Assembly (NCBI RefSeq): GCF_008831285.2
Contig: NC_045144.1
Location: forward strand, 3,216,268 to 3,280,267
Direction: 5' to 3'
Length of the DNA: 64,000 bases
From: Nymphaea colorata
Lineage: Eukaryota; Streptophyta; Magnoliopsida; Nymphaeales; Nymphaeaceae
The notes beneath the pieces were generated by a model, which saw only the letters and a list, made by a program, of their open reading frames with translations, searched no databases and was not told the origin of the DNA. Positions 1 to 50,765 of the stretch are shown piece by piece; within the stretch, counting starts at the first letter, position 1, and each line of letters opens with the position of its first letter. The position numbers were made by a program, and so were the translations under genes.

Positions 1-326
1 AAAGAAAAAAATTGAAATGGTACCCCATTCCACCACTGTTAGTATATTTGTTGGAAGAAAACCTGCCAAACCTGCCATTTTTATAACCATACTTAATTAC
101 CAAAATACCAGGTTTTAGGACATTGTTGACTTCCCAAGTTTGGTTATTAAGGATGGTTATAAGAATAACTTAGTTGTTTCAATTTTTTTCTTTTGTTCAC
201 CGTCTCGCTCAGTTGTTTATTTTCTTTCTGTCTCTTTGCGTGCCCATCTTTTTCTTTTTCTTACTCGACTTTCTGGTTCTCTGTTGGTGCCTTCTTTAGC
301 ATATTTGGTGCACTTGCTCAAGGTTC

Positions 327-745
327 GTGGAAAGTCAAGAAAGCAAGAAAATATCACCGCAGCTGACAGCATTGCCTGATGAAGATCCAGATATGTACAA
401 AGAGAGGCCCGTTGAAGGGTACGGCGAATATATTTTATCTCAAAGTGGAGGGCATATGGAAAAAGGAATTGCCAAAGTGGCGATGGAGGATGTGCCTCTC
501 ATGCCGGATGAAGATCAAGATATGTACAAAGATAAGAGGGGTGATGGCTGACGTGCCTCTCATGCTGGATGAAGATCCAGATATATACAAAGAGAGGCAT
601 GTTGAAAGATATAGCGAACATATCATCTCAGTATAGATGGCATCCAGGAAAAACATTGGGAAGGGGACGATGGTAAACTTGCCTCCCCATCTCCCTAAAG
701 ATCGTCGCTTTAGCAAGCATCCAACAACTCTGGATCAAGTTTTCT
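327..745 (+). pseudogene. G-patch-like unit 1 (broken)
   Basis: A 74-codon frame at 327-551 reads through ALPDEDPDMYKERPVEGYG and EYILSQ, but the loop is damaged (SGGHMEKGIAKVAMEDVP instead of a YGG..GKGIGKG form). A second half-module with a frameshift follows from about 571, ending in a PPHLPKDRRFSKHP-like tail before the T-rich spacer. No full coding frame survives. It is the first recognisable unit of the array; 1-174 holds nothing I recognise. Confidence 0.6.
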
Positions 746-1086
746 TTTTGTTTTGTCAACCGTCTTGTTTCGTTTATTTTCTTTCTGTCTTTTTGAACAC
801 CCATCTTTTCCTTTATTTTACTTGACTTTCTGGTTCTTAGGTATTGCTTTCTTTAGCATTCATGGTGCTCTTACTCAAGGTTCGTGGCAAGTCAAGAAAG
901 CAGGAAATGTCACAGCCGGCCGCATTGTCAATGTGGAGGGCGTATGGAAAAAGGCATTGGGAAAGTGGCGTATGGTTCTCAGGTATTGCCTTCCTTAGCA
1001 TTCATGCTGCTCCTACTCTAGGTTCGTGGCAAGTCAAGAAAGCAAGAAATGTCACAGCCTAACCATTTAAGCAACAGCTGGCCGCA

Positions 1087-1443
1087 TTGCTTGATGAAGA
1101 TCCAGATATGTACAAAGAAAGGCCAGTGGAAGGGTACGGCAAATTTATCTTACCTCAATATGGATGGCGTCTAGGAAAAGGCATTAGGAATGGGGCGATC
1201 CTGGATGTGTTTCCCTTGCCAAATGAAAATCCAAATATGTACAAAGACAAGGGGGCAATGCATGACGTGCATGGGCTGATGAAAATTCTGATATGTACAA
1301 AGAGAGGCCTGTGGAAGGATACGGCGAATATATCATATCTCAGTATGGATAGCATTCGGAAAAAGACATTGGAAAAAGGATGGTGGTGGACGTGCCTCCC
1401 TATATTGAAGTTCATCGCTTTAGCATGCATCCAACAAATCTAG
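1087..1443 (+). pseudogene. G-patch-like unit 3 (118-codon open frame)
   Basis: The frame opens with MLDEDPDMYKERPVEGYG, then a YGW version of the loop (QYGWRLGKGIRNGAILDV) and a second linker NENPNMYKDKGAM. After that the reading frame slips: DNA for the second half-module continues but is read out of frame as ICTKRGLWKDTANISYLSMD. The open frame is therefore partly an accident of decay. The pattern of two half-modules per unit is still clear at nucleotide level. Confidence 0.6.
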
Positions 1444-3060
1444 ATAAAAAAAATTTTTTTTGTCAATGTGGAGGGTGTATGGAAAAAGGCTTTGGGAAAG
1501 TGGCGATGGAGGATGTGCCTCTCATGTAGGATGAAAATGTAGATATGTACAAAGATAAGGGGGGCGATGGCTGACGTGTCTCTCATGCTGGATGAAGATC
1601 CAGATATATACAAAGAGAGCCATGTTGAAAGATGTGGCGAACATGTTATCTCAGTATGGATGGCGTCCAGGAAAAAGCATTCGGAAGGGGACGGTGGTGG
1701 ACTTGCCTCCCCATCTACCAGAAGCTCGTCGCTTTAGCATGCATCCAATAACTCTGGTTCAATTTTTTTTTGTTTTGTCCACTGTTTCGTTCAGTCGTTT
1801 ATTTTCTTTCTGTCTTTTTGAACACCCATCTTTTCCTTTATTTTACTTGACTTTCTGGTTCTCAAGTATTGCCTTCTTTAGCATTAATGGTGCTCTTACT
1901 CAAGGTTCGTGGCAAGTCAAGAAAGCAGAAAATGTCACAGCTAACAGATTTAAGCAGCAGTTGGCTGCATTGCTTGATGAAGATCCGGATATATACAAAG
2001 AAAAGTCAGTTGAAGGGTACGGCAAATATATCTTATCTCAATATGGATGACGTCTGGAAAAAGGCATTAGCAATGGGGCGATCCCGAATGTGTTTCCCCT
2101 GCCAAATGAAAATCCAAATATGTCAAAGACAAGGGGGCGATGGCTGACGTGCCTCCCATGCCTAATGAAAATTCTGATATATACAAAGAGAGGCCTGTTG
2201 AAGGATACGGCGAACATATCTTATCTCAGTATGGATAGCATTCAGGAAAAGACATTGAGAAAAGGACGGTGGTGGACGTGCCTCCCTATATCCCTGAAGC
2301 TTGTCGCTTTAGCATGCATCCAACAAATTTAGATCAAAAAAATTTTTTTTTGTCCATCGTCATGCTTAGTCGTTTATTTTCTTTCGGTATCTTTGCATGC
2401 CCATCTTTTCCTTTTTCTTTACTTGACTTTCTGGTTCTCTGGTGGTGCTTTCTTTAGCGTTCGTGGTGCACTTGTTCAAGGTTTATGGAAAGTTAAGAGA
2501 GTAAGAAATGACACAGCCTAACATATTTAAGTAGCAGCTAACCGCATTGCCTGATGAAGATCCGGATATATACAAAGAGAGAAATGTTGAAGGGTACGAC
2601 GAATATATCTTATCTCAATATAGAGGGCGTCTAGAAAAAAAGAAATTGGCAAAGGGGCAACGGCGGATGTGCCTCCCATGCCGCATGAAGATCTAGATAT
2701 GTACAAAGACAAGGGGGAGATGGCTGACGTGCCTCTTGTGCCAGATGAAGATCCAGATATGTACAAAGAGAGACATGTTGAAGGATAGACAAACATATAT
2801 TATTTCAGTATGAATGGCGTTTGGGAAAAGGCATTGAGAAGAGGACGATGGTGGACGTGTCTCCTTATATCCCTGAAGCTTGTCACTTTAAAATGCATCC
2901 CACAAGTCTGGATCAACAATTTTTTTCTTTTGTCCACCGTCTCGCTCAATCATTTGTTTTCTTTCACGCCCATCTTTTCCCTTCTTTTACTCGACTTTCT
3001 GGTTCGCATGTAGTGCATTCTTTAGCATTCTTGGTTCCCTTACTCAAGGTTCATGGAAAG

Positions 3061-3480
3061 TCAGGAGAGCAAGAAATGTCACAGCCTAACAGATTTAAGC
3101 GCTAGCTGCATTGCCTGATGAAAATCCCAATATGTACGTAGAGAGAATTGTTGAAGGGTACAGCAAATATATCTTATCTCAATATGGAGGGCGTCTGGGA
3201 AAATGCATTGACAAAGGGGCGAAGGCGGATGTGTCTCCCCTGCCGAATGAAGATCCACATATATACAAAGACAAGGGGTTGATGGCCGACGTGCCTTCCA
3301 TTTCAAATGAAGATTCCGATATGTACAAAGAAAGGTGTGTTGAAGGATACATAGAACATATCTTATCTCAGTATGGATGGCATCCAACAAAAGACATTGG
3401 GAAGGGGATGGTAACGGACGTGCCTCCCTATATCCCTAAAGCTCGTCACTTTAGCATGCTTCCAACAAGTCTGGATCAAC
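3061..3480 (+). pseudogene. G-patch-like unit 7, best preserved, both half-modules in one frame
   Basis: From 3111 one frame of 149 codons carries both half-modules: MPDENPNMYVERIVEGYSKY then SQYGGRLGKCIDKGAKADV, a linker NEDPHIYKDKGLMADVP, then NEDSDMYKERCVEGYIEHIL with SQYGWHPTKDIGKGMVTDV and a PPYIPKARHFSMLPTSLDQQ tail. The first loop has GG and the second GW, as in most units. The frame then runs into the T-rich spacer and stops at 3560, so the tail of the ORF is probably intron-like sequence. There is an in-frame stop just upstream of 3111. I see no sign that it makes a stable protein. Confidence 0.65.
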
Positions 3481-3814
3481 AATTGTTTTCATTTGTCCAC
3501 TGTCTCGCTCAGTTGTTTATTTTCTTTTTGTCTCTTTGCGTGCCATCTTTTCTTTTTTAAACTTTTTGGTTCCCAAGTGGTCTCTTCTTTAGTGTTCTTC
3601 GTGCTCTTGCTCAAGCGGTCATGGAAAGTCAAGAAAGCAAGAAATGCCACGGCCTGACAGATTTAAGCAGCAACTAGCCGCTTTACCTAATGAAGATCCA
3701 AGTATGTACAAAGAGAGGCATGTTGAAGGGTACAGCAAATATATCTTATCTGAATATGGAGGGCTTCTGGGAAAAGGCACTGGCAAGGGGGCGATGGCGG
3801 ATGTGTCTCCCATG

Positions 3815-3816
<2 letters not shown>

Positions 3817-3872
<56 letters not shown>
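3817..3872. repeat. (TA)28 microsatellite
   Basis: A pure TA run of 56 bp breaks off the last G-patch unit after its first half-module. Beyond it the sequence is unrelated to the array. Confidence 0.97.
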
Positions 3873-3873
<1 letters not shown>

Positions 3874-6600
3874 CCAACTAACTTTAGGGCTGAATGGTTA
3901 TTTTTTTATTTTGTGTTGCTAAAAACCACTGCAAAATGTGCATGCCAGTGTCTTAAGCATTGTTTTTAACAATGTGTTATAGTTGTTTTGATAATTCTTA
4001 ACGACACAAAATAAAAAGATTACCATTCAGCCATAGAGGTGGCCGACTTAATTCAATTTTTGTGTGTGAGTGTGTGTGTATGTATATATATAAGACGTGA
4101 AAAAACTTGTTCTTTTCATGTATTCTGCAATTTGCTAGATTTTTTAGAAAAAGATGCAATATTTTGTTGTTCTTTTATTGAAAATGTTTTTCACTTTTTA
4201 TAGTAGATGATCTTAGAAAATTAAAGCTGGCTACTCATGCCAGGTGACTTGGTTGAAGTCCAGTAGGCTGTAATGTTTGGCTCCTACTATGGCACTGGTT
4301 GCCCTGCTGCAGCCAAACCAAGTTTAATGTATGTCAATGATTTCTATAATCTAGATCTCAGATCCAGGCTTGGACTATAGAACTGAACTGAAAATTTGAT
4401 TTAGAAAACGTCCTGAATCACTGATAGTAGACTGAAAATTGAATCTGGAGATCTTATTGGAATTTGAAATAATAATCTAGATCTGGAGTGAATAACAACC
4501 ATGGATATTGAACTTGGATTGTGGACTTGGATCAAAATCCTGGGTCTATAAGGATAGAAATTTAGACCTTGGATATGAATGTATATTAGAAGATATGGAT
4601 TCACCCGAGTTTAGTTGGGTTTGAGCATGGGTTAGGTCAAGGTGGAACTGGTTGTTCAAGGATTTGACCAATGATAGGTTGAGTCTAGGATTTGACAGAG
4701 GCTTAGTGGTTAAGCTAGGCTGGCTGGAGTGGATGGGTCACATTGGACGGAGCCTAGACTGGATTCACCTTAGCGCGAGTTTGATTAAGTGGGTCTCAAC
4801 CTAGGTCTAGGAACAAGCCTTGGGCTTTTATCTAACTAGGGATGAGTCTAGTAGGCTCAACTACGGTGAACTAGGCCTGAAGTGAGGTTGACTCGGACCA
4901 GGGATCACCCCTGGGTTTAGACCTGGCTTCAATGAGCTAGGTGGGTTGAGGTATAGTTTGTGTGAAGTTTAATTTCTAGACATGCTAAATTGATGCGTGT
5001 CTAAAACTTAGATACATATTAAATTGGATGTTTAGAAAAAAGACCAAGGTGCCATTGGATGTCCTGACTTACAAAATGATTGTTTTACCCATCATATTCA
5101 CATCCAAATTTTGAACAAATTAGGCGGCACGGACCATACCATATCATAGGGCAGTAAAGCTTCATATGAAACTCTTCCTAGTTTATCCAAAAATTGGATT
5201 TTTAATGATCAGAGTGTGATAGAAATTGGAAATTTTGGGTTCCAAATGGAAATTTTCTAACATAAGTTTGGGGAGCGAAAATAGAGCTTTCTGATCATGA
5301 TGGATTGGAGAATGGGACAATCCTGATGAAAACGACCTATAAATGAGCTCATAAGGTCACTTGGAATGTCACTGGTAGGTAACTAAGCCTAGTGATGGAA
5401 GAACTTGAACTCAATATGAATTGAAGTTAGGCCAAATAGAGCTAGATGAACAGAATCCTGGAGTTGACTTAGATAGACTACACTTGGCTGAGTTAAAACT
5501 GGAATCAAGGACTCACTTAGATAAGTGAGCTTGTTTTAACAACAGCGTTTACTAAAGTTGAGATAGATTTAGGTGGATGAACTTCTTGAATTACTAAACT
5601 TAAGCTGAGGAAGTAACTCAGTGATTAGAGTTCCTCATTCTAATCTCCAAGATGCACAAGAACGCAAAGAATGGAAGGGAAAACAATGAGAAAAGAGGGG
5701 TAATTAAATAACAAAAAGGAATTAGGGTTTTCTTCATCATCAATTAGCGGTAAACAATAGAAAAGATGTCTACCTAAGATGCTTGACCCTTAGATCTGAA
5801 TTGAATCTCAGGTACAACAAATAAAAAGATCCAAACCCAAAATAACATTAATGTACAAATAAATCAATCCAAATCCTAACTAGATCCGAATCTGGGACAC
5901 GAGTTTTTATCTGGATGCTGATAATAAAAAATTGATAACAAGTTAGAGAATGTCTTCAAAAGAAAATTGAAACCAGTGAACAAAACAAAAGATTTTTTTC
6001 ATGAAAATTTATTAAAAATATTCTGCTCAAAATAAATTTCCCTTCTTGGGCGTAGGCCTTACTACGTATTAGGTTTCATTACGCGCTTGCCATTTTTAAT
6101 TTTTTTCATATGAGACCAACTTGGGAGGCAACTATAAAATGGAGGCTCAAAACTAAAAACAGTCAGCATGAAACAGGAAAAAAATAATTTTTATTTACTT
6201 TTTAAATGAAAACGAACCAAATTTAGCGTTATGAAAAGATTACATGAATCGACATTCACATCACATGCATATGAGTTTCTAGGTGATCTTAGGCAGTCAG
6301 CTTTCTTTTCAAATCAGTGATGCGTCAAAGGCAGCCGTGCAATTTGAAGTGCGGCGATGGTGGCACCTCAAGACGTCGGAAATGAAGAGTTGAGTGAGAG
6401 CTTCAACGTTCTACCAAGTTGTGGAAACCCCACTGGCGGGGAAAGTGACTTTCTAGCAAAACAAAATTTGGACATACATCTGAAATTCAGAAATTTGATG
6501 CTTGCTTTGGGGACAAGGACGAAAGCTTAGTCCCTAAGCAGAAGCATGGTAGAAAGGGAAAATATTATTGCCAAACTCTGACGCTCTTTTCCAGTCAAAA
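3873..6600. other. Intergenic, no gene recognised
   Basis: AT-rich non-coding DNA. About 4320-4980 is full of short imperfect repeats of the ggatttggattc and ctaggtctag kind, similar in style to 17160-17360, and may be decayed LTR-retrotransposon sequence. No ORF above about 65 codons has a recognisable product. No transfer RNA or other RNA gene was found. Confidence 0.5.
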
Positions 6601-17458: not shown

Positions 17459-18398
17459 GTCAACAATGATATTTTGTTGGCCAGTAATGACATGGAGATG
17501 CTAAATACTATAAAAGACTGGTTCTCTATTCATTTTAAAATGAAAATCTTGGGTGATGCAGCATTTATTCTAGGAATTAAAATTAAAAAAAAAGATCATA
17601 TAGAAAGATTTTTGCTTTGTCGTGAAAGTCTTATATCAAGAAAATCTTAAGAATTGTAAGTCCATTGACACTCCAATCACTAAAGGTGGTAAACTTAGCC
17701 TTGAGTTGTGTCCTAAAACATCACAAGAAACTAAATTGATATATAGAAGCCTATATTCTAGTGTTGTGGAGCTGACCTGACATATGTCATGCAGTTTAGA
17801 CATTTAGTCAATATCAATCAATTCCTGGACATGGATATTGGAATACAGTCAAAGAGGAATCCATTCTTAAAATGGACAAGCAACTTGGCATTATGTCATG
17901 CAGTTTCAATAGTAGAGATATGCACATAACAAGATATATAGGTGCAGATTGGGGTGGTGATCTAGATGAGTTTAAATTCAGATTTGATTATGTATTCTTG
18001 TTGAACCATGATGGTAAATCCTAGTGTAGCAAGAAACAGACATGTGTGGCTTATCAACCATCAAAGTAGAATTTGTGGCTGGTTCAATGGCGATATAGGA
18101 AGGTGTTTGGTTAAGAAGATTGATTAAGTATTTAATAATATTTCATGATGCTAGGTTGCGTCTGACTATTTATTGTGGTAATCAATCAATGATCACATAT
18201 GCAAAGAATCTCCAATATCATAGTAAAATTAAACACATGGACACCAGATATAGGTATGCATGCAACGTTATGTCCAATGGAAGGGTCATGTTAGAGTTTA
18301 TGCCCACCCATGAGATGGTGGTTGATCCTTTTACAAAACAGATTGCCAACGGTTCATATTTGAAACATGTAAAGTCTGTGAGATTGTATAGAATTTGA
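17459..18398 (+). mobile_element. Ty1/copia retrotransposon remnant: reverse transcriptase and RNase H
   Basis: Starts inside reverse transcriptase with NNDILLASNDMEMLNTIKDW and FKMKILGDAAFILGIKI, the segment after the copia YVDD box. It then gives NCKSIDTPITKGGKLSLEL after a frameshift and a damaged YSSVVG..LTYVMQ region. RNase H follows, with an intact 92-codon frame at 18120-18398 containing LTIYCGNQSMITYAK, KIKHMDTRY and the ending MVVDPFTKQIANGSYLKHV. Gag, protease, integrase and most of RT are missing upstream. Several frameshifts and stops show that it is dead. The order (RT then RNase H) and motifs are diagnostic of plant copia elements. Confidence 0.88.
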
Positions 18399-31206: not shown

Positions 31207-31884
31207 TCAAAAAGCCTTCCGGTTCTTCTCCTTTCTGCAGAGGAAATAACCAAAACTGAACAGACTGCTTCTCCCTCTAGAAATGTAAGGTGGTGGCACG
31301 TTCAAAACTGGGTTGATTCTCACGCCGTTGTTGTGTTCCTTCTTCTTCAGCGGCGGTTTTTTCCCTGCCTTGATAGGATTTGCTGACAATAATGCCGGTG
31401 GTGGTGCTGCCGCTTTCTTTGCGGGCAGCGTCGCCTCCTTCGTGTTCGACCCCATTGATTTGCTTCTTGTCATCTTGTTCAGAGAAGAGAGCAAGCCAGA
31501 CTTCGTGATGCTCCTGCAATTCAGGCTGTTGCTTCTGCGGAATCCCCAGAAGGATTTGGATGCCGCAGGTGCCGGAGTCGGCTGCTTCTCACTATCTAAT
31601 ATCTCTTTCAGGCTCCCTGATCTTGAACTCCGGGGTGGAACGGAGGCAAGAGGTGCGCTGATGGCTGCAAGAGGGAGGATCTTTCCGTTGTAGAAGAGCT
31701 GATCAGCTGGGGAGGAGTAATTTTGCTCGGGAATGCAGAAATGGAAGTCACATGAGGATGATTGCAGGAGGGAGGAGTCTTCTCGGTGATCACCGATGCG
31801 ATCAGTTTGCGAAAGATCGCTCGAGAACGAGATCCGGGGGCTAAAAGTCCAGCCGGAATTATCAGAAACGATTTCGAGTGCCAT
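31207..31884 (-). CDS. Plant-specific serine-rich protein (MAKR / DUF1645-like), intact copy
   Basis: 225 codons, intronless. Residues 46-72 hold a hydrophobic/polar block CDFHFCIPE followed by SPADQLFYNGKILPL. This ADxLFxNGxI(R/L)P pattern is typical of a group of plant regulatory proteins annotated as membrane-associated kinase regulator-like or DUF1645-like. Residues 111-122 are SFWGFRRSNSLN, then a serine-rich stretch (to about 146), a lysine/alanine/proline linker, a conserved NPVLNVPPPYIS box (191-202) and a basic end with a CRKEKNRKAF tail. No transmembrane segment or signal peptide is seen; a cytosolic, membrane-edge or nuclear regulatory role is inferred from the family. The ATG at 31884 begins MALEIVSDNSGWTFSPRIS, shared with the duplicate at 43467. 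An 87-codon upstream ORF ends 14 bases before it. The left breakpoint of the tandem duplication (31547/31548) cuts through codon 112-113. Confidence 0.82.
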   Translation of the reverse strand: MALEIVSDNSGWTFSPRISFSSDLSQTDRIGDHREDSSLLQSSSCDFHFCIPEQNYSSPADQLFYNGKILPLAAISAPLASVPPRSSRSGSLKEILDSEKQPTPAPAASKSFWGFRRSNSLNCRSITKSGLLSSLNKMTRSKSMGSNTKEATLPAKKAAAPPPALLSANPIKAGKKPPLKKKEHNNGVRINPVLNVPPPYISRGRSSLFSFGYFLCRKEKNRKAF

Positions 31885-31898
31885 GAATGGTGCCGAAA

Positions 31899-32162
31899 CT
31901 AGAAACTTTTCAGTTTAGAGAGCTTAAAATTTTCAAAGAAGAAATGAGGTTGAAAGACATCATGTCTCAGCAAAAGCAATTCAGGAAGACTGGAGAATTT
32001 TTGAAAATCATATACAAAGAAACGGAGCGGAAACGAAGCGAGGAATTTGGAATAAATGATCAATCTCTCGACCGAGATATGGGAGTTTGGCAGTTGAAGG
32101 AAGTGACGTCTCGGTAGAGGAACAGGAAGAATTTGTCGAAATGGTGAAGATGGGAGAGACAA
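31899..32162 (-). other. Upstream ORF (87 codons) in the 5' leader of the serine-rich gene
   Basis: Starts MSLPSSPFRQILPVP and ends FKLSKLKSF, leaving 14 bases before the main ATG. It is basic and leucine/phenylalanine-rich with no known domain. The duplicate at 43482-43745 keeps the same start, stop, length and spacing. The two copies differ at about 18 of 264 bases by my count, of which about 12 change the residue, so there is no clear sign of protein-level constraint. If transcribed it would be expected to lower translation of the main ORF. Confidence 0.5.
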
Positions 32163-33430
32163 AAAAGAAGATCGGCTGGACTGTGTAACTACAATAACAA
32201 AAGAAAAGAGAACAGGAGAAATGAAAGGGCAAATCTGAGGTTTTAATCACAGAAGATGAAAGCCGAATTGGTTTGCCCAGACAGATCAATTCTCTCTCTC
32301 TCTCTTTCCATGTTCTTTAAAGGGGCTCCCTTGTAAAGCTTTATCATATCCTTCTCTCTCCCTCTCTCTGATGGTGGGTGCCAGAGAAGGAAGGAAACTG
32401 AAAAGTGCCGAGCAGAGTGAAACATGCCACAGACCATAAAGAAAATATGCTCCTCGGCCTTGTTTTCAACCGATGAACAGCGGTAAAGCACCTAATCAAT
32501 GTGTTTCTGTGAAAGACCAAGGATGTAAATTAGATTTATAAGACCGAAACGACAAAAAATGATCCATGAGAAGAGGAAAACTGAACGAGTCACTGTTACG
32601 TGGATTACAGGCGCATCCGATGCACCCTTCTTTCCCTTTCATTGTATTCCGATAAAATAATACTAAGTACATATTTGTGCTCTTTCTACAACCTAGCTCC
32701 TTCCCAATCTCCACCCTTTTCCATATATAGGATAATTCAACAGACCTTGAGGGATTAATTTCCATGTCCTCTATTACTGGTAACAACACGAATTATCAAG
32801 ATAATTTTTTGCCACTTCAGTAAAGTGGCGGTACGCGAGAGGTGAAGCCACCCTCCTTCCCATACTGACCAGCTACGTAAGTAACGCCCTCGGAACGCCA
32901 CTTCAGTTCAAGTGAATACCCAAAATCATGACTGTCTCTCTGCATCATGAGCACTGCCATAGTAGCATTATTGTAAGACATAGTAATTGGGTAGGCTCGC
33001 TTGAGGCTTGCCTATCAGAGTGGGTGGTTCATTAAGTGGTACCGGCTTTTGAAGGTTTCTGTCACAAAAAGTAAAACTGGAAAGGAATGATAGACAAAAT
33101 TCAGCACTAGAAGAGTACCTGCTCTGTTTTGCCATTTCCTGTTGATCTTTGAAAACGGTCTATTGCTTGCGCATCTGGTTAGTCAGATCAGCTTATGACA
33201 TTTAAGTTGAAGGAGGTCAAGAATTCGATACACATGCAGCTTGTCTTGTGTCCAGGCCAAGGCCGACTGGTGGACAATGGAGTTGCTGACCTTGCTAATT
33301 GGAAATATAAAATGAGATGAATCATAAAACAACCTCGCTAATTGAGTGGAAAATAGGTTCAGCAATTCTTCCTAGCTGTCTTTTCTGTTCTTCTTTGGGC
33401 AATTTTCTTGTGAAACAGATATAAAGAATG
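32163..33430. other. Upstream region of the serine-rich gene; 32312-33430 only in unit A
   Basis: The first 150 bp match unit B. From the (CT)n run at 32288-32310 onward, 1.1 kb has no counterpart in B, where the (CT)n run joins directly to the gttgtcatgggg segment at 43896. It would be the promoter-side region of the intact gene. No other gene seen. Confidence 0.55.
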
Positions 33431-35741
33431 TTGTCATGGGGACACTCCTGTTTAGCTAAAGAACAAACTACGCTATATCCAAAGCCATTTAGTACCTGTA
33501 CATTTGCTTAGGCCATCTGATAGTAGAACCTAATGGCAATTAGTCTATAATTCTTCAGCAAATAATTACTTTACAAAGGATGCTCTGTAGGATTACAACC
33601 GAGCCAATGAAAGATTTTCGAGCCATTTGGTTGCAGTAACAGTATGTTACCATCCCATGTAGCTGCTCTAAATGTTAGGGCAGATTCATTAAACAGTATT
33701 CCGAATGTCTCTTGAATCTGCTCCAACATTTGGGGCATATACATGGAAAAGTAGCATAATGTTACTGTTGCTAAACAATCCCTGAGGGCTAGACCATAGG
33801 ACTAATTGATTCTGGCCCAAATGTGAACTAAGGGTATACAGCATCAAACTTGAGCTATTCAAGCTTGGCCGTTTCACAACAACCAGCACTGCTCTGCTTG
33901 AACTCGGCTCGTGAATGCCAGTGAATTATATGGAACAAACCAAATTTAAAGCTCAGCAAACAGAGATCAGCTCCAGCAGCAAAAGTTCTGCTTAGAACAA
34001 ATGAAGCCGAAAAACCCATTTTGGAGGGAAATAGAGCAGTGGACGATTCAAATCATCTGCTTATCGTTGTCAATGCTCAACGTTCCCAGAGCTCCTGTGC
34101 TAAGCATGTAAAGTTGCATTTGACTATTTGGAACCAATTAAACTTAGGTAAGGCTTGAATGCAATGTGCAAGCTATACTGATCTATAAAAATAGAGTAGC
34201 TTCACGGCTAGTTGAACTTGACCTTTCATCCCATTTAATGTGCAAGCAGTGTGGTTGACAGAAATTTCTGGCGAAGGGACAATAGTACTCCAACTGAAAC
34301 TTTTAAGAGGCAGCCTTTGCATAAGTAAATATCTACGAAGTATTAGTATATAAGTAAGCAATTTATGTGCATCTATCATGTGCCTCCACCACTGACTCCA
34401 AGCCAAACATGTCTTAGCGTAAAATAGCTGACAAGTGCTCGTGGCGTTGCATTATACGCTGACAGTCTTTAAGAGGTTGCAGAACTTAAGGAGGAAGCAA
34501 TAAAGCTCATAAATATGGTCAGATTCTTGAGACCAAACTGGAACTTGAGTTGTGAGCGAGAATGATTGGCTGACCTTCACATATCATCTGCGGTTGAGAG
34601 ACTGCAAACAAGACCTTTCCTCTTTCTTCCTTCAGGTGAGCAGGAGGTTAATAACCCACCACTCGAAGAAGACCGGAAGGCTCCCCATTAGTCATTACTC
34701 TCTTTCATGAAATAAGACTTCTTTCTTTTGTTGGAACCGACAGGAAACATGCGAAATAAACTGCACAAGGAAAAGCTAAACCACCATTAATAATCTCTAT
34801 TATGCTATCTGCCACTCACAGAATTCCTTCACCATCACTATTGTGGAGATCCATATACCTCAACTCTATGATTACATCAGGTTTTCAAGTCCTGCTTCTT
34901 TCCCTTGTTACTTTGGTTGGGCTAAACTTTGATTCTACAGGTCTTTAATTATATCCTCTTGTAACATTCTTTCTTTCGTGGATGTGATGGTTTTTCCCCT
35001 TACCATACATCCAACCATGCATATTAGAAGAGATTATTTAACCTCCTTTTCCCATTTCTCTTTACTTGTAACATTCTTTCTTTCGTTGATGTGATGGTTT
35101 TTCCTTTTACCATACACCCAACCATGCATATTAAAAGAGATTATCTAATCGCTTTGATCTTTTCTATTTATGAATATGCATGTCTACTTTATTTATCTCT
35201 CATTTTACTTTTTACTCGCAAGTTTCTTACCTTCTAAACTGGATCAAACACCAGTTATGCCAGAAAAAAGATTTGGGGGAGAGGGAATGCAAGTGTGGCC
35301 ATAGTGTGGGCAATCGGCCACACAAGTCCAAAAAAGTTTTTTTTCACATTGAAATTTTATGGCAGTTTTTTTCATTTACATACAGGCATTTCTTAGAAAT
35401 TTTAAATTGTATAACTAATGCCCCTTTAGTTAATTTTTTTAATTTAAAAAAAATATATATGTAAATTTTAAAAAAAATTCATTTAACTTATATTAAAACT
35501 TTGAAAAACTATATTTCAGCTAGTATTAAAATTTAAAAACCATAGTTCGACCCCTAATGAAAAATTATTAGCCTGAACCGCGGAGTTCTGCCACTATGCA
35601 TGCAGCCTGAGGCTTTCCATGGAAGCAGACACGAAGGCATGAAGAAATATGGGCTAACATGCTAGGCGCGGCGCACTCCATGATTTGATCCTTTGAGTGT
35701 TCCTCCTTATCAAGAATTAGAAAGAGGAAAAGGTGCAGTAA

Positions 35742-36350
35742 AGGTTGCTTCATGTCTAATCTATTAGTGATGACAAGATCATTGATAATGCCACGTTATT
35801 TTCTTGTCCTTAACAAGAACTTTAGTGGGCCATCCATAAGAAAAGGATTTCTTGTATCCAATCCTGGTTGCTTAGGCTCTCCAGAATTTAAATATTGCCA
35901 ATCTGTATATCTTTTTCTGTGTAATGTTTTTTTCACAAAGTTTCTATGTCGCCCTCCAAGATCTTCCTTTATCAATTTTGGAGAATGACGTGACATTTAA
36001 GAATCTAAAGGGATACTACTGCTCATTTATGTGACTTTAAAATGCCTTAATTGAGTTCTGATGCTGTTAGAAAGAGTATGAAGAAGGTTAATATCCAACA
36101 ACTACAATACACAAGCATAGGACAACAATGACAACATCATCAGTATCGGCATAGCCATCACCGTCGTCAATAATAAATGCATTAAAAAAAGACCACCGAC
36201 AAACGGAAGAGCAACAGTACTATAGTTGTACACTTATAATTTTTGTTATTTTTATCTGGAAAGGACTAATACCGGCTTCAAACATGTAATTTCACTTGAT
36301 TGCAGACGACCAAGAAAAAAGTATTGTCTTCCTTTTGGTAAAAAACAAAA
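35742..36350. repeat. Nearly identical tract shared with 46251-46859
   Basis: About 610 bp differ from unit B at only one or two positions by eye. Frames on both strands (35752-35988 plus; 35796-35996 minus) are therefore preserved in both copies, but this follows from the overall identity and does not show coding. Neither frame resembles a known family. Confidence 0.6.
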
Positions 36351-36365
36351 AAAAGAAAAAGAAAA

Positions 36366-36366
<1 letters not shown>

Positions 36367-36397
<31 letters not shown>
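36367..36397. repeat. (GA)n microsatellite at an A/B indel edge
   Basis: The A-only segment (36398-37779) begins exactly at the end of this run. Confidence 0.9.
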
Positions 36398-36399
<2 letters not shown>

Positions 36400-37779
36400 A
36401 TTATAATAACATTTCACAGGTCCAACAAAAGTTCGAACAGAAATTATGACACAAAAAAGAAGATAATGAAATAAAGAAAATAGCAGGAGAAGTTAGTGGG
36501 GAGTAAGAAGCCCTTGCAACAACAAACAACCAATATATCCCTAGTGTTTCATTCACTTAGAATCAATGAAATGTTAGAATTATTATTTTTGTTCTTAAAA
36601 TGTGCGAATTGCATTATTGAAGAAAGAATTTTAATTTCACAATTATGCGCATTCATTTGTGGACACAAACTCCAGAATTATGATCCCACGTTAAGGTGGA
36701 ATTATGACTCCAAAAATTTTGATTTTTTTTTTTTCATTTTTCTTTGAAGCGCCGAGTGATTTCTAAAATTTTACTTTCTTTTCTATCACAGGTCTTTTTT
36801 TTTTTTAATTATGGAATCAAAATTCTAAACCATCAGGAACAGGCAGTTGGCCCGTTGAACTGCAGAAAGGAAGCGTAGAGTCCTGAAGTTAAAAATGTCG
36901 GTGAAGTAACCCTTTGGAATAATAGACTGGTGAACGAATTTGGGAAGTTTGGATTTGCAATAAATGAAACTCTCTGACCAATTAAGAACCACGCAATTTT
37001 ATATATCTAACTTAACTTTCCATCCCATGTAGTAATCTATGTATCTAGACTAACCCCACATTCTATGTGATCCGCCCTACTAATTGCAGTTAGTTCGTCT
37101 TCCTTATTTTGAGGTTGTATTTTGTTTCATGCAGATCTCAAATTCGTGGTGATCTGAGATTCCAAATTCGTGGTGATCTGAGATTCCTAAACTTAAAGCT
37201 ATGTCATCAGAGTGCCGGGTGCGGGTGCCGGTTCGGGTGCGAGTGTCAGAGCGGTACATTCCAAAAAATTTAGGTGCGGCGAGAATATTTTATTATTATT
37301 ATTATTATTTTTAATTTATTATATATATAACAGAAATAAACATATATATATTATAATTACAATTTAGTTATTAATATATATAACATACTTCAATAATTAT
37401 ATTGCATAGAAAAATACGAGAACAACATATATTATATAAGTAATAAAGTAATATGACATTTTAAATGGGCTCGAGTGTGAGTCGGAGCCACACCCATGTT
37501 CGGTGCGCACCAGACTCGATGCGACTCAGGTGTGGAAGTAAAATAAAAGAGTCTGGTGACTTAGCTTAAAGGTCGAACCTTTTCCTCACCCTTCCCCCCA
37601 AAAAATCTGACCATAAGTCTATGGTTTTTAATATCTAGCATAAATTTATGATCCATCTACTGCGAAAAGCTATCAAACACAATTTTAGGTAAAGCTTCTT
37701 CAAAATTGATGGGCAGATCATACAATCATGTGGAGTGTTTTCCTTAAGAAAGAGACCGATCATATCTTATCATTCAAAA
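36398..37779. other. 1.4-kb segment found only in unit A
   Basis: Non-coding. It includes a short direct repeat (aattcgtggtgatctgag twice near 37141-37185). It also has a GC-richer stretch, about 37215-37260, with repeated gggtgcgggtgcc phrases, and a related gtgcgcaccagactcg stretch at about 37490-37540 on the far side of an ATT/AT-rich core. These may be the ends of another small element. Confidence 0.5.
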
Positions 37780-37904
37780 GCATATTTGTTCTGTTTCCAG
37801 GACCTCACAGAGCCGTGTCTAGTTAAAAAATAGAATAATCCGAAAAAAGATTAAAGAAAAAAAAGTGAAAAGGAATAATGCCGGAACGTGGGCCTATTGA
37901 ATGG

Positions 37905-37906
<2 letters not shown>

Positions 37907-37963
<57 letters not shown>

Positions 37964-37982
37964 GAGAGAGAGAGAGAGAGAG
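37907..37982. repeat. (AT)n then (GA)n compound microsatellite
   Basis: AT run 37907-37957 followed by a GA run 37963-37982. Unit B has only a short AT run at the matching place (about 47055-47074). Confidence 0.95.
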
Positions 37983-39196
37983 GAAGATGTGGGTGGCAAT
38001 TGACCACATTGGTTATCAAACAATTTCTTATTTTACATTGATATTTCAAAACAATTTTTGTCATTTAAATATTGATGCATCTTAAAACTTTTAAATTTTA
38101 TAATTTTTTGACAGGTAAGTGGCCTACGTGTCTAAGAATCAGGAGGCCATTTATTGTGTTACTATGCATGAAATAGAAATATGGATGGGCTTTTGGAGTG
38201 GGGATGTTTGTCTCTTGATGAACCTCCGACCTCGTTATTGAATTGTTCTAACATGACTGACGTTGTCTGCACACAGTACTGGGTGCAATTAAATTATATC
38301 CAGTGCCATATAAAATTACAAGATCGCCATGATCTCTTTCTTTATTTAATGCACAGTACAACCAGGAATTGGGAGCTGCCAGGTCTCACATGACAATAGG
38401 TGCACCATTTTCAAAACTTAATTAGTGCAACTGTCGGCTTGAACGGTTTATTTTTAGTACTTTGAAAAATATTGCTTTTTTTCAAAAGATCTTGCTTATT
38501 AGATCAATCATATGGATTTCATAAGTCAAATTAGTTTTGCCTAACATGGTATATATATATATATAAGAGTGACTTTAAAAGAGAGACCAATAGATATATC
38601 GGGAACAAAAGCCAAACTTTTTAAATATGATATTTAAAGTGATTTTTGAAAAACTAACCTTACCAATATCATTTTAAGGATATGTTGCAAATATTATTAA
38701 ATTGATCATTTTTTGGGTTTTAATAGTGTTTTTATAATAAAAAACGCATGACTCTCGTTGCATCAACATTTTAATAATAGAAAAATCAATATTTTTTTAT
38801 AAAAACAACTTGGTTCAAAGCATGTATCAAAATAGTTTATATACATATTCAAAATCAAAATACCTGCTGTTATTTATCTTTTTGAAATTTAAGAAAATAA
38901 TAATGACAATTTTTATAATTTCGTTAGTTAATTTTCTCACGAGGACAAGCTTCTATATGTAAAAGTGATGTTGATGTTTTATATCGTAGTGTTTCATTTC
39001 AAAAGCCATTAATAAGGAAATCAATTTTGACCAGATTGTCCCAAATTTTGTTTAATTAAAATATTTGGACATTAGATTCTCACATCCCATTGTTAGGATA
39101 ATCCAAGAAACTTTGTTCTTTCTTGTACGCAAGTTATCCCAACTATAAGTCGTTTGACACACACTAGTCCCAACAGTAAGTTGTTATATATATATA

Positions 39197-39531
39197 TAAG
39201 ATTTGTGGATTACATCTGGGTTTGGATAGAGAAGTCTTCTGGCCTCTCCAGCATATTGCCCAATGCAATGTCATACTATACTGTAATTGAATGGAGCTTA
39301 AGCTGGAGGATTTCAGCGATTATATATATATATATATATGTAGGGGTGGAGGGAGGGGGCCCTGCTTAGGCCGTGGCCCCACTCAAGCTAAGTGAAAAAC
39401 AAAAATTACATTAACAAAATACAAAATTTTAATTGCATAATGTATTTTTTTGATTTGGATTTAGTTTAGCCTTACCCAGAAAAATTTGTTAGACCGTTTG
39501 ACTCGCCTCTGAAAAAAATCCTCGTTCCGCC

Positions 39532-39598
<67 letters not shown>

Positions 39599-39625
39599 CA
39601 CATAAAGAGAAAGGCAGAGGTGTTT
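39197..39625. other. A-only segment bounded by TA repeats, carrying a MITE-like core
   Basis: Unit B reads agttgttatactatatatat then ccagacatttg here, so ~430 bp are missing or were never present. Inside A, about 39340-39530 begins ggggtggagggaggg..ctgcttaggccgtggcccc. This is the complement-oriented relative of the insertion at 45571-45763 in B. (TA)n and (GA)n runs (39320-39340, 39532-39592) flank the core. Confidence 0.55.
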
Positions 39626-39915
39626 ACCAGACATTTGTACCTACTATATACTTTTTTGGGAAAACTCCCATGAGAGCCCAATGCTATGCAGCGCAATTCA
39701 CAAAGTCTTGCTCTCTAAAAATCTGCATTGGATAAGAAATTTGTAATGTTTGCTTTTACCAGCTGTAGTAAGATACTGGAAACCAGTTTGGTGGAAGATT
39801 TAGTTATTTCACTTAATAAATCAAATTGGGTAAGATTGAACAGTAAGAATGTCCTGTCAGAAGAGTCATGAGTAGGACTTTGCGGTTGTTGGTAGTGGTG
39901 TGCAACACGCATGAT

Positions 39916-40283
39916 TAGGGCTGCACAACAAGTCGATCTAGCTTGAGCACAAGTTCAAATATATGCTCGATATGTTAAACTAATCGAGTTCAAGTTGTAA
40001 GAACTCGAGTCGGCTCAGCTACATAATGAATATTGATTTATTATAAGAAAATAGTTAACGAGTCACAACTAAATGAGTTAATTGAGTTAAAAGAAATGAG
40101 ACATGCTTAACATAAACAAGTTAAACAAGTCAAACGAGTTAGTTTGAGCCCAACGTATTGTTGAGTCGACCTCAAGCTTGTTCTGTCGAGATAGAATCGA
40201 GTTGAAGCTCGAGTTTTTTGAGTCGATCAAGCTCAAGGTGACCCAACTCAACTCGAACTCGATTCAGCTTATGTGAAGCCCTA
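39916..40283. mobile_element. hAT-type MITE with TAGGGCT ends (unit A copy)
   Basis: Starts TAGGGCTGCACAACAAG and ends tatgtgaagcccta (complement TAGGGCTTCACATA). It is flanked by cgcatgat and ggcatgat, 7 of 8 matching, fitting an hAT-type target duplication. The interior is rich in ctcgag, gagtcga and cgagtt phrases typical of this common plant MITE type. Also present in unit B, so it inserted before the duplication. Confidence 0.75.
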
Positions 40284-41223
40284 GGCATGATACCTACACA
40301 TGTAAATATATTTATTAGGACATGATTTAAATTCATAACTTCCACAACTACAAATGTCTGATAAATTATACCCCCAATTCTGGCAATGGCTGCAAGACTA
40401 GAATCTGTCCGTCAAAGACATAAGACATCATTTTTACCATCTAAGGGACATCAAATCAATGTACTTTCCTTGATATTCTCTGCAATTTTTGAACAATGAC
40501 ATTGAGAAAACGCCACATTCGGATTGGAGTTTGCAACTCAAAGCACCACGTATGAACAACACACATCATAAGGGGATGCTTGACAAACAAATCCCTCTCT
40601 AATGGCACAAGATCTGGCCAAGCAACAGCCCCATGTGAAATTCAGACGTCCCTCGACCAATATCATGTGTTAGAAGTCCCCATCCAGCATCTCCCTTTGC
40701 ACGAGGACAACACTGGTACACTCACAACCTCATCTCAATTATTTTTTAAATGTTCTCCTACCGCTTCTTGTCTCATTCAAATGGCCTTGGCCTTCCTCTG
40801 GATACAGCTTATTAATATCGTAGAACGTTGACATCTATCCATGCATCTGTAATTGGATATGAAATTGAGTGCAAATATCATACGTTAATCGAATGCAGAT
40901 AGGATCTGCGGTGACTTAATTTTTTGATAGAATATTTAGGTCCATGAAGCGATGAATGTGGCCTATTCTCACATGCATGTGGTTCGCTTTTAGGCCATGA
41001 CTGCATCTGAATACCATCAGATTCAGATTTTGTCAGATTCACATTGTCATGAAAGTGTCAAATCCAATTGCAGACAGCAGGAAGGGACACCATAATACTT
41101 AGTCTGACATAGGAAGATGAAAACAGAGAGTTGCCAATATATCAGGAGATAGATTGAGAATTTCCAATTCTTTCTTCTTGAAGTCTGTTATTTTTCATTA
41201 TAGAACTGATTAATACATATGCT

Positions 41224-41687
41224 TAGAGATGTCAACGGATCAAATTCAAGTCTGATATAATCTTAATTGTATCAACCTTTTTAAATATTAACATATTGGG
41301 GTTTGAATTCAAATTTGAAAATGAACAATGAAAGGTCATATATTCAAAATTTAAATGTGAATTCAATTTCACAATCCAAAACTGATTCGAACCCTATTTG
41401 TACATTTATATCCGAATTTGAATTCAAATTTTGAACCAAATTTGACCAATTTTTAAAATGTAAGAGCATTAAATACAGGATATTTCTTTAAAACTAAATC
41501 TGATATGAATCCGAACAGATAATTTTGTTATATTCGAATCTAAATCTGAATCCGTTCAGATGTCATTTCTTAAATCTGAATAAGATCTGATCATTTTTTA
41601 ATTGAATATTAATTTTTTTTCCATATCCGATTTTTTTAGAATAGTTTGGTAGGATGTCCGATCCAAATTAAATATATGATAACCCTA
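41224..41687. mobile_element. GATGTCAA-family non-autonomous element, unit A copy
   Basis: Starts tagagatgtcaacggatc and ends gataaccctA, flanked by catatgct and cataaact (6 of 8). The copy in unit B keeps a cleaner duplication. The interior has the same gaattcaaatt and ccgaatc phrases as 23265-23716. Confidence 0.65.
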
Positions 41688-43122
41688 CATAAACTGTTGA
41701 AAATGAAAGCATAATTCTAAATGGAAATGATGTCATCTCAAGAAATTGCTAAGGGTAGATATGTATGACAGGTGTTCCGTTATAAACTAGAGATTTTGAA
41801 TTTTTGTGAAAAAGCAAAAGGGTTCATGATTTTTCTCGACAAAACACAATAATTGACATTATGGAAGGACATCTTTTGTTCTCTTGCGTGCCAACTCGAA
41901 AGTTGGCCTCTTTTCTGTGACTGATGTTAGTGAAAAAGGTAAAGTAATAAGCTGAGGGACAAAAGGCTGGACCAGATGCGTGAAATGAAACTAAACCCAT
42001 TCTGCTTTTGGATGGTGAATGAAGTTCATCATGGATCTGTTTGATTATATACCTCACGATTCTCTTAGATAAATATAATGTAGAGATTGTTGGAGTTTGA
42101 AGCTTAATTTATACTTAACAGACTTTGATAATTTTCGTGAATTCAAATAATTTTGTATATCTGTTAAGAATGAACTGATTTTTTTGTAAGGACTTTTATC
42201 TAATTAGGCATTTTGTAGGTTTGTCCTAATTTTTATGTTTACCATGGGGCGGTTTCTTGTAATCTTTGATCTTTCTGTGATAACGAAATCTCTGTGCAAC
42301 TGTGGATGCAAGAGAACCTTATCCCCAAACAACCTAAAATCCTTATGTCTTCTTCTTTTTCTTCTTCATTTTCTTTTCTTGGTGTTGTAAGAGAGAAAGA
42401 GGGTCTCGTTCCTAGAGATACAATAGAAATTGTACATCTGTTAGACTTTTTAAGAGCAACATCCAGGAGTCCCGATGCATAAAATGAGATCCGGGTGGAT
42501 TTCGTTTCCATTCCTGATAAGTTCCTGAACTTGTATATAAAAGATGCTTAACTTTTACCTGCAAGGGCTCCATCCACCTCATGACTAGCTAGACGACATT
42601 GCTTAAAGCTTGCAAGTTAACCCGTGCATAATTAAAGACTTGTAGTATGCATCTCATGTCGCCAAATCCAAAAAAATGCACACACACACACAGGACTAAT
42701 TAAATATTGATCAAGCTCACTAGTTACAAAATACATAATACTAATTAAATCTGAATCAAGAGGACCGATGCAAAATAATTGACACTTGAGTTTTTTTTTT
42801 CTTTTAAATTTAATGTCATTTCGGAGTTAGAGGAAACCAAGGGGCTTTAGCCTTTTTTTCAAGCTGTGAGTTGTTAACCTCTTGCTCACTCGAATTTAAA
42901 TGTCATTTTCTAAATTGTTAAAAAATTGTACCTTCCTAAAAAAAAAAAGTAGGAGGAACATAAAAAAAATGTATTAAAACAAATTAGTCTGAATCACGAT
43001 GTGAACTATTAAACATCACAGAATGTACAAGACATGAAAACGACTTCTAGGGACAGGGATGGAGACCGGGTAGGAGCTACAAAAGGTGGGTCCAGAACTA
43101 GATTCCCTCGATCCGACTTCTC

Positions 43123-43467
43123 TTAGTTCTGGCTACAGAAGGATTTGGATGCCGCCGGTGCCGGAGTCGGCTGCTTCTCACTATCTAATAACTCTTTCAG
43201 GCTCCCCGACGTTGCACTCCGAGGTGGAACGGAGGCAAGAGGTGCGCTGATGGCTGCAAGAGGGAGGATCTTCCCGTTGTAGAAGAACTGGTCAGCTGGG
43301 GAGGAGTAATTTTGCTCGGGAATGCAGAAATGGAAGTCACATGAGGATGATTGCAGGAGGGAGGAGTTTTCTCGGAGATCACCGATGCGATCAGTTTGCC
43401 AAAGATCACTCGAGATCCGGGGGCTAAAAGTCCAGCCGGAGTTATCAGAAACGATTTCGAGTGCCAT
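43123..43467 (-). pseudogene. Truncated duplicate of the serine-rich gene with a foreign four-codon end
   Basis: Codons 1-110 follow the intact gene (MALEIVSDNSGWTFSPRIS..., a two-residue deletion after RIS, ADQFFYNGKILPL block kept) up to KSF. There the tandem-duplication junction brings in flanking DNA that adds CSQN and a stop. The FRRSNS region, the serine-rich stretch, the NPVLNVPPP box and the basic tail are all lost. The remaining frame has no stop or frameshift, so a 114-residue shortened protein could be made if the leader is still transcribed. The 87-codon upstream ORF and about 420 bp of upstream sequence are retained; the next 1.1 kb of upstream DNA seen in unit A is missing. Confidence 0.85.
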
Positions 43468-43481
43468 AAATGGTGCCGAAA

Positions 43482-43745
43482 CTAGAAAAGTTTCAGTTTA
43501 GAGAGCTTAAAATTTTCAAAGAAGAAAAGAGGTTGAATGACATCATGTCTCAGCAAAAGCAATTCAGGAAGACTGGTGAATTCTTTAAAATCATATACAA
43601 AGATAAGTAGCGGATACGAAGCGAGGAATTTGGAAGAAATGATCAACCTCTTGACTGAGATATGGGAGTTTGGCAGTTGAAGGAAGTGACGTCTTAGCAG
43701 AGGAACAGGAAGAATTTGTCGAAATGGTGAAGATGGGAGAGACAA
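43482..43745 (-). other. Upstream ORF (87 codons) of the truncated duplicate
   Basis: Same start, stop, length and 14-base spacing as the upstream ORF at 31899-32162, with 12 changed residues. It remains open despite about 7% nucleotide difference and no indels. Confidence 0.45.
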
Positions 43746-45570
43746 AAAAGTGATCGGCTGGACTGTGTAACTATAATAACAAAAGAAAAGAGAACAGGAG
43801 AAAATGAAAGGGCAAATCTGAGGTTTTAGTCACGGAGGATGAGAGCCGAATTGGTTTGCCTAGACAGATCAATTCTCTCTCCCTCTCTGTCTCTCTTGTC
43901 ATGGGGACACTCCTGTTTGGCTAAAGCACAAACTACGGTATATCCAAAGTCATTTAATACCTGTATATTTGCTTAGACCATCTGATAGAACAGATGGCAA
44001 TTAGTCTATAATTCTTCAGCAAATAAGTAGTTCACAAAGGATGCTCTGTCGGATTACAACTGAGCAAATGAAAAATCTTCCAGCCATTTGGTTACAGTAA
44101 CAGTATGTTACCATCCCATGTAGCCGCTCTAAATGTTAGGACAGATTCATTAAACAGTATTCCAAATGTCGCCTGAATCTGCTCCAACATTTGGGGCATA
44201 TACATGGAAAAGTAGCAGAATGTAACTGTTGCTAAGCAACCCCTGAGGGCTAGACCATAGGACTAATTGATTCTGGCCCAAATGTGAACTAAGGGTATAC
44301 AGCATCAAACTTTAGCTATTCAAGCTTGGCCGTTTCACAACAACCAGCACTGCTCTGCTTGAACTCCGCTCGTGAATGCCAGTGAATTATATGGAACAAA
44401 CCAAATTTAAAGCTCAGCAAACAGAGATCAGCTCCAGCAGCAAAAGTTCTGCTTAGAACAAATGAAGCCGAAAAACCCATTTTGGAGGGAAATAGAGCAG
44501 TGGACGATTCAAATCATCTGCTTATCGTTGTCAATGCTCAACGTTCCCAGAGCTCCTGTGCTAAGCATGTAAAGTTGCATTTGACTATTTGGAACCAATT
44601 AAACTTAGGTAAGGCTTGAATGCAATGTGCAAGCTATACTGATCTATAAAAATAGAGTAGCTTCACTGCTAGTTGAACTTGACCTTTCATCCCATTTAAT
44701 GTGCAAGCAGTGTGGTTGCCAGAAATTTCTGGCGAAGGGACAATAGTACTCCAACTGAAACTTTTGAGAGTCAACCATTATATAAATAAGTAAATATCTA
44801 CGAAATACTATTACATAAATAAGCAATTGATGTGCACCGATGGTGTGCCTCCACCACTGACTCCAAGCCAAACATGTCTTAGCGTAAAATAGCTGACAAG
44901 CACTCGTAGAGTTGCATTATACGCTGACAGCCTTTAAGAGGTTCCAGAACTTAAGGATGAAGGCAATAAAACTCATAAATATGGTCAGATTCTTGGGACG
45001 AAACTGGAACTTGAGTTGTGAGCAATAATGATTGGCTGACCTTCATATATCATCTGCAGTTGAGAGACTGCTAACAGGTGAGCAGGAGGTTAATAACCCA
45101 CCACTAAAGAAGACCCAAGGCTTCCCCATTACTCTCTTTCATTAAATAAGAATTCTTTGTTTTGTTGGAACCGACAGGAAAAATGCGAAATAAACTGCAC
45201 AAGGAAAACATAAACCACCATCAATAATCTTTGTTGTGCCATCTGCTACTCCTAGAATTATTTACACCATCACTGTTGTGGAGATCTATGTACCTTAACT
45301 GTATAATTACCCAGGCTTTCAAGTCCTGCTTCTTTCCCTTGTTCCTTGGTTGCTTTTAAACGTTGAATTCTACAGGTCTTTAATTATATCCTCTGCTTTT
45401 CCAATTTTTTTTACTTGTAACATTCATTATTTCGTGGATGTGATTGTTTTTCCGCTTACTATACATCCAACCATGCATATTAAAAGAGATTATTTAACTG
45501 CCTTTTTCCAATTCTCTTTGCTTGTAACATTCTTTCTTTTGTTGATGTGATCTTTTACCATACACCCAAC

Positions 45571-45763
45571 CAGGTATGACAAGATTTTTTTTAGGTGCGG
45601 GCCAAAAGGTTCAACAAACTTATCCGAATAGGATCAAACTAAATCAGAATTCAAAAAATACATTACCCAACTAAACATGTTTAATTTTTTTAATGTGATA
45701 TTTTTTTAGTTAGTTGGGGTGGGGCACGGCCTAGGCAGGCCCCCTTCCCTCCCTCCACCACTG
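45571..45763. mobile_element. Small MITE-like insertion found only in unit B
   Basis: Unit A reads cacccaaccatgcatatt uninterrupted at 35111-35128. Unit B reads cacccaacca, then about 195 bp, then gccaaccatgcatatt. The near-repeat ccaacca on both sides is a plausible target duplication. The right end ccctccaccactg matches the CAGTGGNGGA hAT ends at 21566 and 28836; the left end is worn. Confidence 0.6.
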
Positions 45764-47582: not shown

Positions 47583-48060
47583 TTTATTTTTAGTACTTTG
47601 AAAAATATTGCTTTTTTTCAAAAGATCTTGCTTATTAGATCAATCATATGGATTTCATAAGTCAAATTAGTTTTGCCTAACATGGTATATATATATATAT
47701 AAGAGTGACTTTAAAAGAGAGACCAATAGATATATCGGGAACAAAAGCCAAACTTTTTAAATATGATATTTAAAGTGATTTTTGAAAAACTAACCTTACC
47801 AATATCATTTTAAGGATATGTTGCAAATATTATTAAATTGATCATTTTTTGGGTTTTAATAGTGTTTTTATAATAAAAAACGCATGACTCTCGTTGCATC
47901 AACATTTTAATAATAGAAAAATCAATATTTTTTTATAAAAACAACTTGGTTCAAAGCATGTATCAAAATAGTTTATATACATATTCAAAATCAAAATACC
48001 TGCTGTTATTTATCTTTTTGAAATTTAAGAAAATAATAATGACAATTTTTATAATTTCGT
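47583..48060. repeat. Nearly identical tract shared with 38447-38930
   Basis: About 480 bp show no differences by eye except in an AT run. This contrasts with several percent difference in neighbouring parts of the two units. Confidence 0.6.
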
Positions 48061-48632
48061 TAATTTTCTCATGAGGACAAGCTTCTATATGTAAAAGTGA
48101 TGTTGATGTTTTATATCGTAGTGTTTCATTTCAAAAGCAATTAATAAGGAAACCAATTTTGACCAGATTGTCCCAAATTTTGTTTATTTAAGATATTTGG
48201 ACATTAGATTCTCACATCCCATTGTTAGGATAATCCAAGAAACTTTGTTCTTTCTTGTACGCAAGTTATCCCAACTATAAGTCGTTTGACACACACTAGT
48301 CCCAACAGTAAGTTGTTATACTATATATATCCAGACATTTGTACCTACTGTAGACTTTTTCTTTCTGTCTTCATGTTGCGCGATAAATCTCATGAAAGCC
48401 CAATGCTATGCAGCATAATTCCCTAAGTATTGCTCTCTAAAAATCTGCATTGGACAAGAAATTTATAATGTTTGCTTTTACCAGCTGTAGTAAGATACTG
48501 GAAATCAGTTTGGAGGAAGATTTAGTTATTTCCCTTAATAAATCAAATTGGGTAAGATTGAACAGTAAGCTTGTTCCGTCACAAAAGTCATGAGTACGAC
48601 TGTGCAGTTGTTGGGTGTGCAATACGCATGCT

Positions 48633-50361: not shown

Positions 50362-50765
50362 CATAAACTGTTGAAAAATGAAAGAATAATTCTAAATGGA
50401 AATGATGTCCTTTCGAGAAATTGCTAAGGGTAGATATGTATGACAGGTGTCCCGTTATAAAGTAGAGATTTTAAATTTTGTGAAAATGCAAAAGGGTTCA
50501 TGATTTTTCTCGACAAAACACAATAATTGACATTATGGAAGGACATCTTTTGTTCTCTTGCGTGCCAACTAGAAAGTTGGCCTCTTTTCTGTGACTGATG
50601 CAAGTGAAAAAGTTAAAGTAATAAGCTGAGGGACAAGAGGCTGGACCAGATGCGTAAAATGAAACTAAACCCACTCTGCTTTTGGACGGTGAATGAGGTC
50701 CACCATGGATCTGTTTGATTATATACCTCACGATTCTCTTAGATAAATATAATGTAGAGATTGTT

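Follow-up and report, generated by a model that had tools for sequence, protein, structure and literature searches.

A decayed head-to-tail array with G-patch ancestry in the genome of Nymphaea colorata

The window analysed here, i.e. the whole stretch of 64,000 nucleotides from Nymphaea colorata (assembly GCF_008831285.2, contig NC_045144.1, positions 3,216,268 to 3,280,267 of the forward strand), carries near its left end a tandem array at positions 175-3815, as a preliminary description of this DNA had proposed. Its estimate of seven or so units was a fair one; we delimit eight head-to-tail units or part-units, four of them whole and 562-580 bp long. Indeed, self-comparison of the window reveals direct-repeat families with many copies 562-580 bp apart from position 180 on, with pairwise matches starting at 175, and a probe reading GATGAAGATCCAGATATGTACAAAGA (coding for DEDPDMYKE) occurs 17 times, each time with at most 5 mismatches in 26 positions. 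Outside the array, matches to the consensus unit in the 64 kb are limited to three of 14-18 bp in the DNA and one at the protein level with an E-value of 4.4. A whole unit is composed of a T-rich spacer, a short lead (consensus MSQPNRFKQQLAALP) and three modules, here denoted A, B and C, a composition absent from the preliminary description. The units and the right edge of the array are as follows.

175..736, forward strand: unit 1, T-rich spacer and modules A, B and C; 17-nt deletion; +1, -2 and -1 frameshifts
737..972, forward strand: unit 2, spacer and a truncated remnant of A; 21- and 65-nt deletions relative to the consensus
973..1453, forward strand: unit 3, partial spacer (part missing) and A, B and C; TAG at 1350; deletions of 1, 4 and 3 nt
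1454..1761, forward strand: unit 4, truncated, with the tail of A followed by B and C; TAG at 1527; +1 and -2 frameshifts common with unit 1
1762..2336, forward strand: unit 5, whole; two 1-nt deletions; TGA at 2048; TAG at 2236 (common with unit 3)
2337..2916, forward strand: unit 6, whole; TAG at 2532; +2 and -1 frameshifts
2917..3479, forward strand: unit 7, the least decayed unit with A, B and C, which are open in one frame; 4 nt missing from the lead
3480..3815, forward strand: unit 8, spacer and module A, cut by the TA repeat; remainder free of stops and frameshifts
3817..3872, no strand: (TA)28 microsatellite, right edge of the array

Just past the TA run, positions 3882-4038 form an inverted repeat with 44-nt arms that are 84% complementary and separated by 69 nt, which looks like a small MITE. 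Further into the window, the segments 31548-43136 and 43137-52045 constitute a large tandem segmental duplication with seven collinear pieces longer than 200 bp, the identity being 88-99% for six pieces and 74% for the remaining one. A 703-bp block inside this duplication (35686-36388 versus 46195-46897) is 99.3% identical, compared with 74-93% for the other pieces, and may have been homogenised recently by gene conversion or copied separately at a later time. The region 57191-64000 contains nested direct repeats, including arrays of a 162-bp tandem repeat at 60367-61024 and 62695-63156. An open reading frame (ORF) at 18099-18395 resembles, by eye, the RNase H end of a copia-type retrotransposon, with nothing found in Pfam at an E-value of 0.01; at this threshold the Pfam scan, which covered 10 of the 40 ORFs of at least 95 codons outside the array, gave no match.

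Within a unit, A and C each represent a complete G-patch-like module, while B starts alike and is about 23 codons shorter; RFKQQLAALPDE represents the lead sequence. Where the spacing is undisturbed, 129 nt separate the starts of A and B and 60-61 nt those of B and C, from which it follows that B lost 69 nt (23 codons), in frame. Representative modules are these.

1093..1221, forward strand: A module of unit 3, beginning with DEDPDMYKERPVEGYGKFILPQYGWRLGKGIRNGAILDV
3246..3305, forward strand: B module of unit 7, shortened to 60 nt instead of 129 nt
3306..3479, forward strand: C module of unit 7, beginning with NEDSDMYKERCVEGYIEHILSQYGWHPTKDIGKGMVTDVPPYIPKARHFS

For a comparison we took six modules of type A and six of type C, leaving out every B module and what remains of A in units 2 and 4. 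Identities were 82% among A modules, 81% among C modules and 72% between A and C, with the C modules clustering apart from the A modules with a support of 0.998. The split between A and C thus predates the amplification of the units. Module B is present in all six units that hold the respective region (units 1, 3, 4, 5, 6 and 7), so it is probably as old as the A/C split.

The G-patch ancestry claimed for the array is well supported by the consensus, and by no single copy. A script-made majority consensus matches the Pfam family PF12656 (G-patch_2) with an E-value of 5.8e-8 and 33.1 bits, in two stretches lying in one frame, and so exceeds the curated cut-off of 26 bits (that of PF01585 is 22 bits). 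A 132-residue hand consensus, picked by eye, reaches 1.4e-13 and 51.1 bits. A 110-residue hand consensus containing one module scores 22.4 bits, and a 41-residue module consensus built from 12 copies scores 18.6 and 17.9 bits (E-value 0.002), all under the cut-off; the score of the majority consensus is thus carried by its two stretches together. The C module covers positions 4-49 (hand consensus) or 7-49 (majority consensus) of the 61 positions of the profile. When five pieces of the window itself were scanned, two matched PF12656 below the 26-bit cut-off, namely 1066-1260, the stretch with the A module of unit 3 (E-value 0.0023, 18.4 bits), and 3102-3500 from unit 7 taken alone (0.018, 15.5 bits), and three matched nothing. 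As for controls, neither the reversed consensus nor any of four shuffled versions (0 of 5) matched any Pfam family. Of the remaining five frames in which the consensus can be read, three were tested and yielded no G-patch, their best matches being weak and to other families (E-values of 0.11 and above). A search of NCBIfam with the hand consensus returned no match. The motifs quoted in the preliminary description proved to be partly idealised: in the three forward frames of the array its 20-residue string occurs once (at 378), SQYGW twice (at 1649 and 3366) and GKGIGKG never, whereas looser forms do recur (VEGYG five times, IGKG three times).

Two of the three forward frames are free of stops throughout the coding block of the consensus, over 136 codons in the G-patch frame and 135 codons in the next one, whereas the third has 11 stops. 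Base shuffles, which do not preserve the internal repeats, were open in 3 of 5000 cases in the G-patch frame and in 1 of 5000 for any forward frame; given this property of the shuffles and the openness of the second frame, we attach little weight to the open consensus, and the idea that it is good evidence of a coding origin was dropped, as the second frame is open too. Differences between units lean weakly towards the third position of that second frame (p=0.065), which may once have been under constraint; it has no significant match in Pfam (best E-value 0.11). One might therefore ask whether the G-patch resemblance is fortuitous, the unit being an unrelated tandem repeat or one that codes for something else in the second frame, the more so as the majority consensus matches unrelated proteins in the PDB (E-values 0.052 and 1.2). 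We consider this highly improbable in view of the majority-consensus score above the curated PF12656 cut-off, the empty reversal and shuffle controls, the lack of a significant Pfam match for the second frame, and the fact that G-patch proteins account for three of the five sub-threshold PDB matches obtained with the module consensus. In the G-patch frame, unit 7 is still open across A, B and C, and a TGA in the spacer reads CGA in units 1 and 7, so that an ancestral frame reading through the spacer is possible; pyrimidine-rich DNA has few stops, however, and for this reason we give the read-through no weight.

The preliminary description named MOS2/GPKOW as the parent of the array and proposed a profile search of its consensus against PF01585. 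The hand consensus matches PF01585 with an E-value of 0.0079 and 16.5 bits, below the cut-off of 22, as against 1.4e-13 for PF12656. The module consensus shows the same preference (0.032 versus 0.002), and PF01585 is absent from the Pfam matches of the majority consensus. As we take PF12656 to be the Spp2/GPKOW/MOS2 type of G-patch, MOS2/GPKOW parentage is favoured by the profile comparison. In searches of solved structures, the module consensus has five PDB matches with E-values below 10, none significant, and its three G-patch proteins are SUGP1 (0.51), TFIP11 (0.53) and, in fourth place, GPKOW (0.82). With the hand consensus, GPKOW comes first (0.12) and SUGP1 third (0.75), again non-significantly, and PDB searches with the majority consensus, a six-sequence module profile and the ORF of unit 7 returned no G-patch protein. 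Being non-significant and not singling out GPKOW, these matches leave the MOS2 parent at the level of a favoured candidate. Derivation from a different G-patch protein, such as one resembling SUGP1 or TFIP11, would fit the slightly better ranks of these two proteins with the module consensus, but it appears unlikely considering that PF12656 outscores PF01585 for both the hand and the module consensus, that PF01585 is unlisted for the majority consensus, and that GPKOW is the top PDB match of the hand consensus. No KOW family was found in the Pfam scans of the array consensus or of the 10 ORFs (out of 40 of at least 95 codons) scanned outside it.

The preliminary description further suggested that the array arose by amplification of an exon plus intron of a MOS2-type gene, in which case the spacer would be a complete MOS2 intron. 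The spacer is indeed rich in T, which makes up 48% of its first 130 bases, and contains the acceptor-like sites TTCTCAG and CTTCTTTAG. A complete intron in the unit is nevertheless not supported: a search with simple patterns found no GTRAG or GTANGT donor in the consensus unit, though a non-standard donor may be present. The first GT dinucleotides past the end of module C, in TTTGTCCAC and ACCGTCTCG, are unlike donors, and the only rather donor-like site, CAG/GTAGTG, is located behind the T-rich stretch. An exon-plus-intron unit is thus supported at most on the acceptor side, and we regard its amplification from a MOS2 gene as improbable.

The pseudogene decay that had been proposed is supported. 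Seven of the eight units bear truncating deletions, stops or frameshifts; the exception, unit 8, is undamaged up to the point inside module A where it breaks off, and the array contains no intact open gene. Across 408 columns and eight units, pairwise differences at codon positions 1, 2 and 3 of the G-patch frame amount to 0.213, 0.190 and 0.165, i.e. there is no third-position excess (p=0.92). Changes from the consensus unique to one unit comprise 148 nonsynonymous, 49 synonymous and 3 stop changes, compared with a neutral expectation of 142, 51 and 7; stops are fewer than expected, and the test as a whole is non-significant (p=0.25). Had the array grown while coding, differences would be expected to cluster at third positions, and none of this is seen. 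Moreover, certain lesions occur in more than one unit: a TAG in units 3 and 5, and both a one-base insertion and a two-base deletion in units 1 and 4. It follows that amplification partly copied DNA that was already broken, unless gene conversion spread the lesions later. Larger blocks were copied too, as positions 427-916 match 1450-1941 at 89% and 973-1461 match 1856-2350 at 88.5%. The order of events originally envisaged, amplification first and decay afterwards, is therefore not upheld by the array. Corrected distances between units range from 0.11 to 0.31 (20 of the 21 pairs of seven units, unit 2 left out, having enough columns). With a plant substitution rate near 5e-9 per site per year, these distances would correspond, as a rough estimate, to 10-30 million years.

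One may also consider that the array goes back to a real, protein-making gene, a plant relative of splicing helpers, in which two or three G-patches followed one another in a single open frame. The array would then be the relic of this gene, or the decayed neighbour of a copy that may still be live at another place in the genome. Modules A, B and C do lie in one frame (with spacings of 129 nt and 60 nt and the 69-nt loss), the consensus is open through all three, and unit 7 remains open across them. Yet the consensus A and C modules differ at 9, 8 and 9 sites by codon position, so that the branch linking the two shows no sign of coding constraint; openness says little in favour of the G-patch frame when a second frame is open too, and an in-frame period combined with an in-frame loss would arise by chance in about 1 of 9 cases by our estimate. 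We therefore hold such a founder to be distinctly improbable. A live relative with several G-patches, if it exists, would be unusual: according to a 2026 review, a G-patch protein always has a single G-patch domain (PMC13111387), although a plant paper states that the G-patch proteins of Arabidopsis vary in the number of G-patch domains (PMC5767255).

The scenario that we find quite probable is that a fragment of a G-patch gene, most likely of the Spp2/GPKOW/MOS2 type, was multiplied first internally and then head to tail, giving rise to a satellite-like pseudogene array that has no product. The fragment, consisting of the acidic lead and the G-patch, would have been cut off from the remainder of the gene and multiplied internally into A, B (with the in-frame loss of 69 nt) and C. 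The A-B-C block, together with the T-rich stretch upstream of it, would then have undergone head-to-tail amplification, with unequal crossing-over as the probable mechanism rather than, for example, gene conversion spreading the lesions, and partly in blocks that exceeded a single unit. At none of these steps is the G-patch frame seen to be under coding constraint, which is why we read the array as product-less; it presumably has no function and is most likely a fossil, not a working gene. It would thus be a case of a splicing-cofactor module that has spread as freely decaying tandem DNA, with lesions in common giving the order of events.

Satellite-like or pseudogene arrays built from gene fragments are known as a general kind, and the array described here resembles them in its head-to-tail growth, its block duplications and its decay without codon bias; what differs is the source module, here a G-patch. 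No report of a G-patch pseudogene array was found among the matches listed in the open-access literature. Plant MOS2-like genes can turn up at new places, a further point of likeness: one allele of the radish Rfo locus holds a predicted MOS2 homologue, and two MOS2 genes are present in Arabidopsis (PMC2848758). Those, however, are described as genes, whereas in the array only the decayed G-patch part was found. The proteins with a PF12656-type domain provide a further close comparison. GPKOW and MOS2 have one G-patch and two KOW motifs (PMC4266926); a whole unit of the Nymphaea colorata array, in contrast to their one G-patch, contains two full modules and a shortened one, arranged in tandem and mostly broken.
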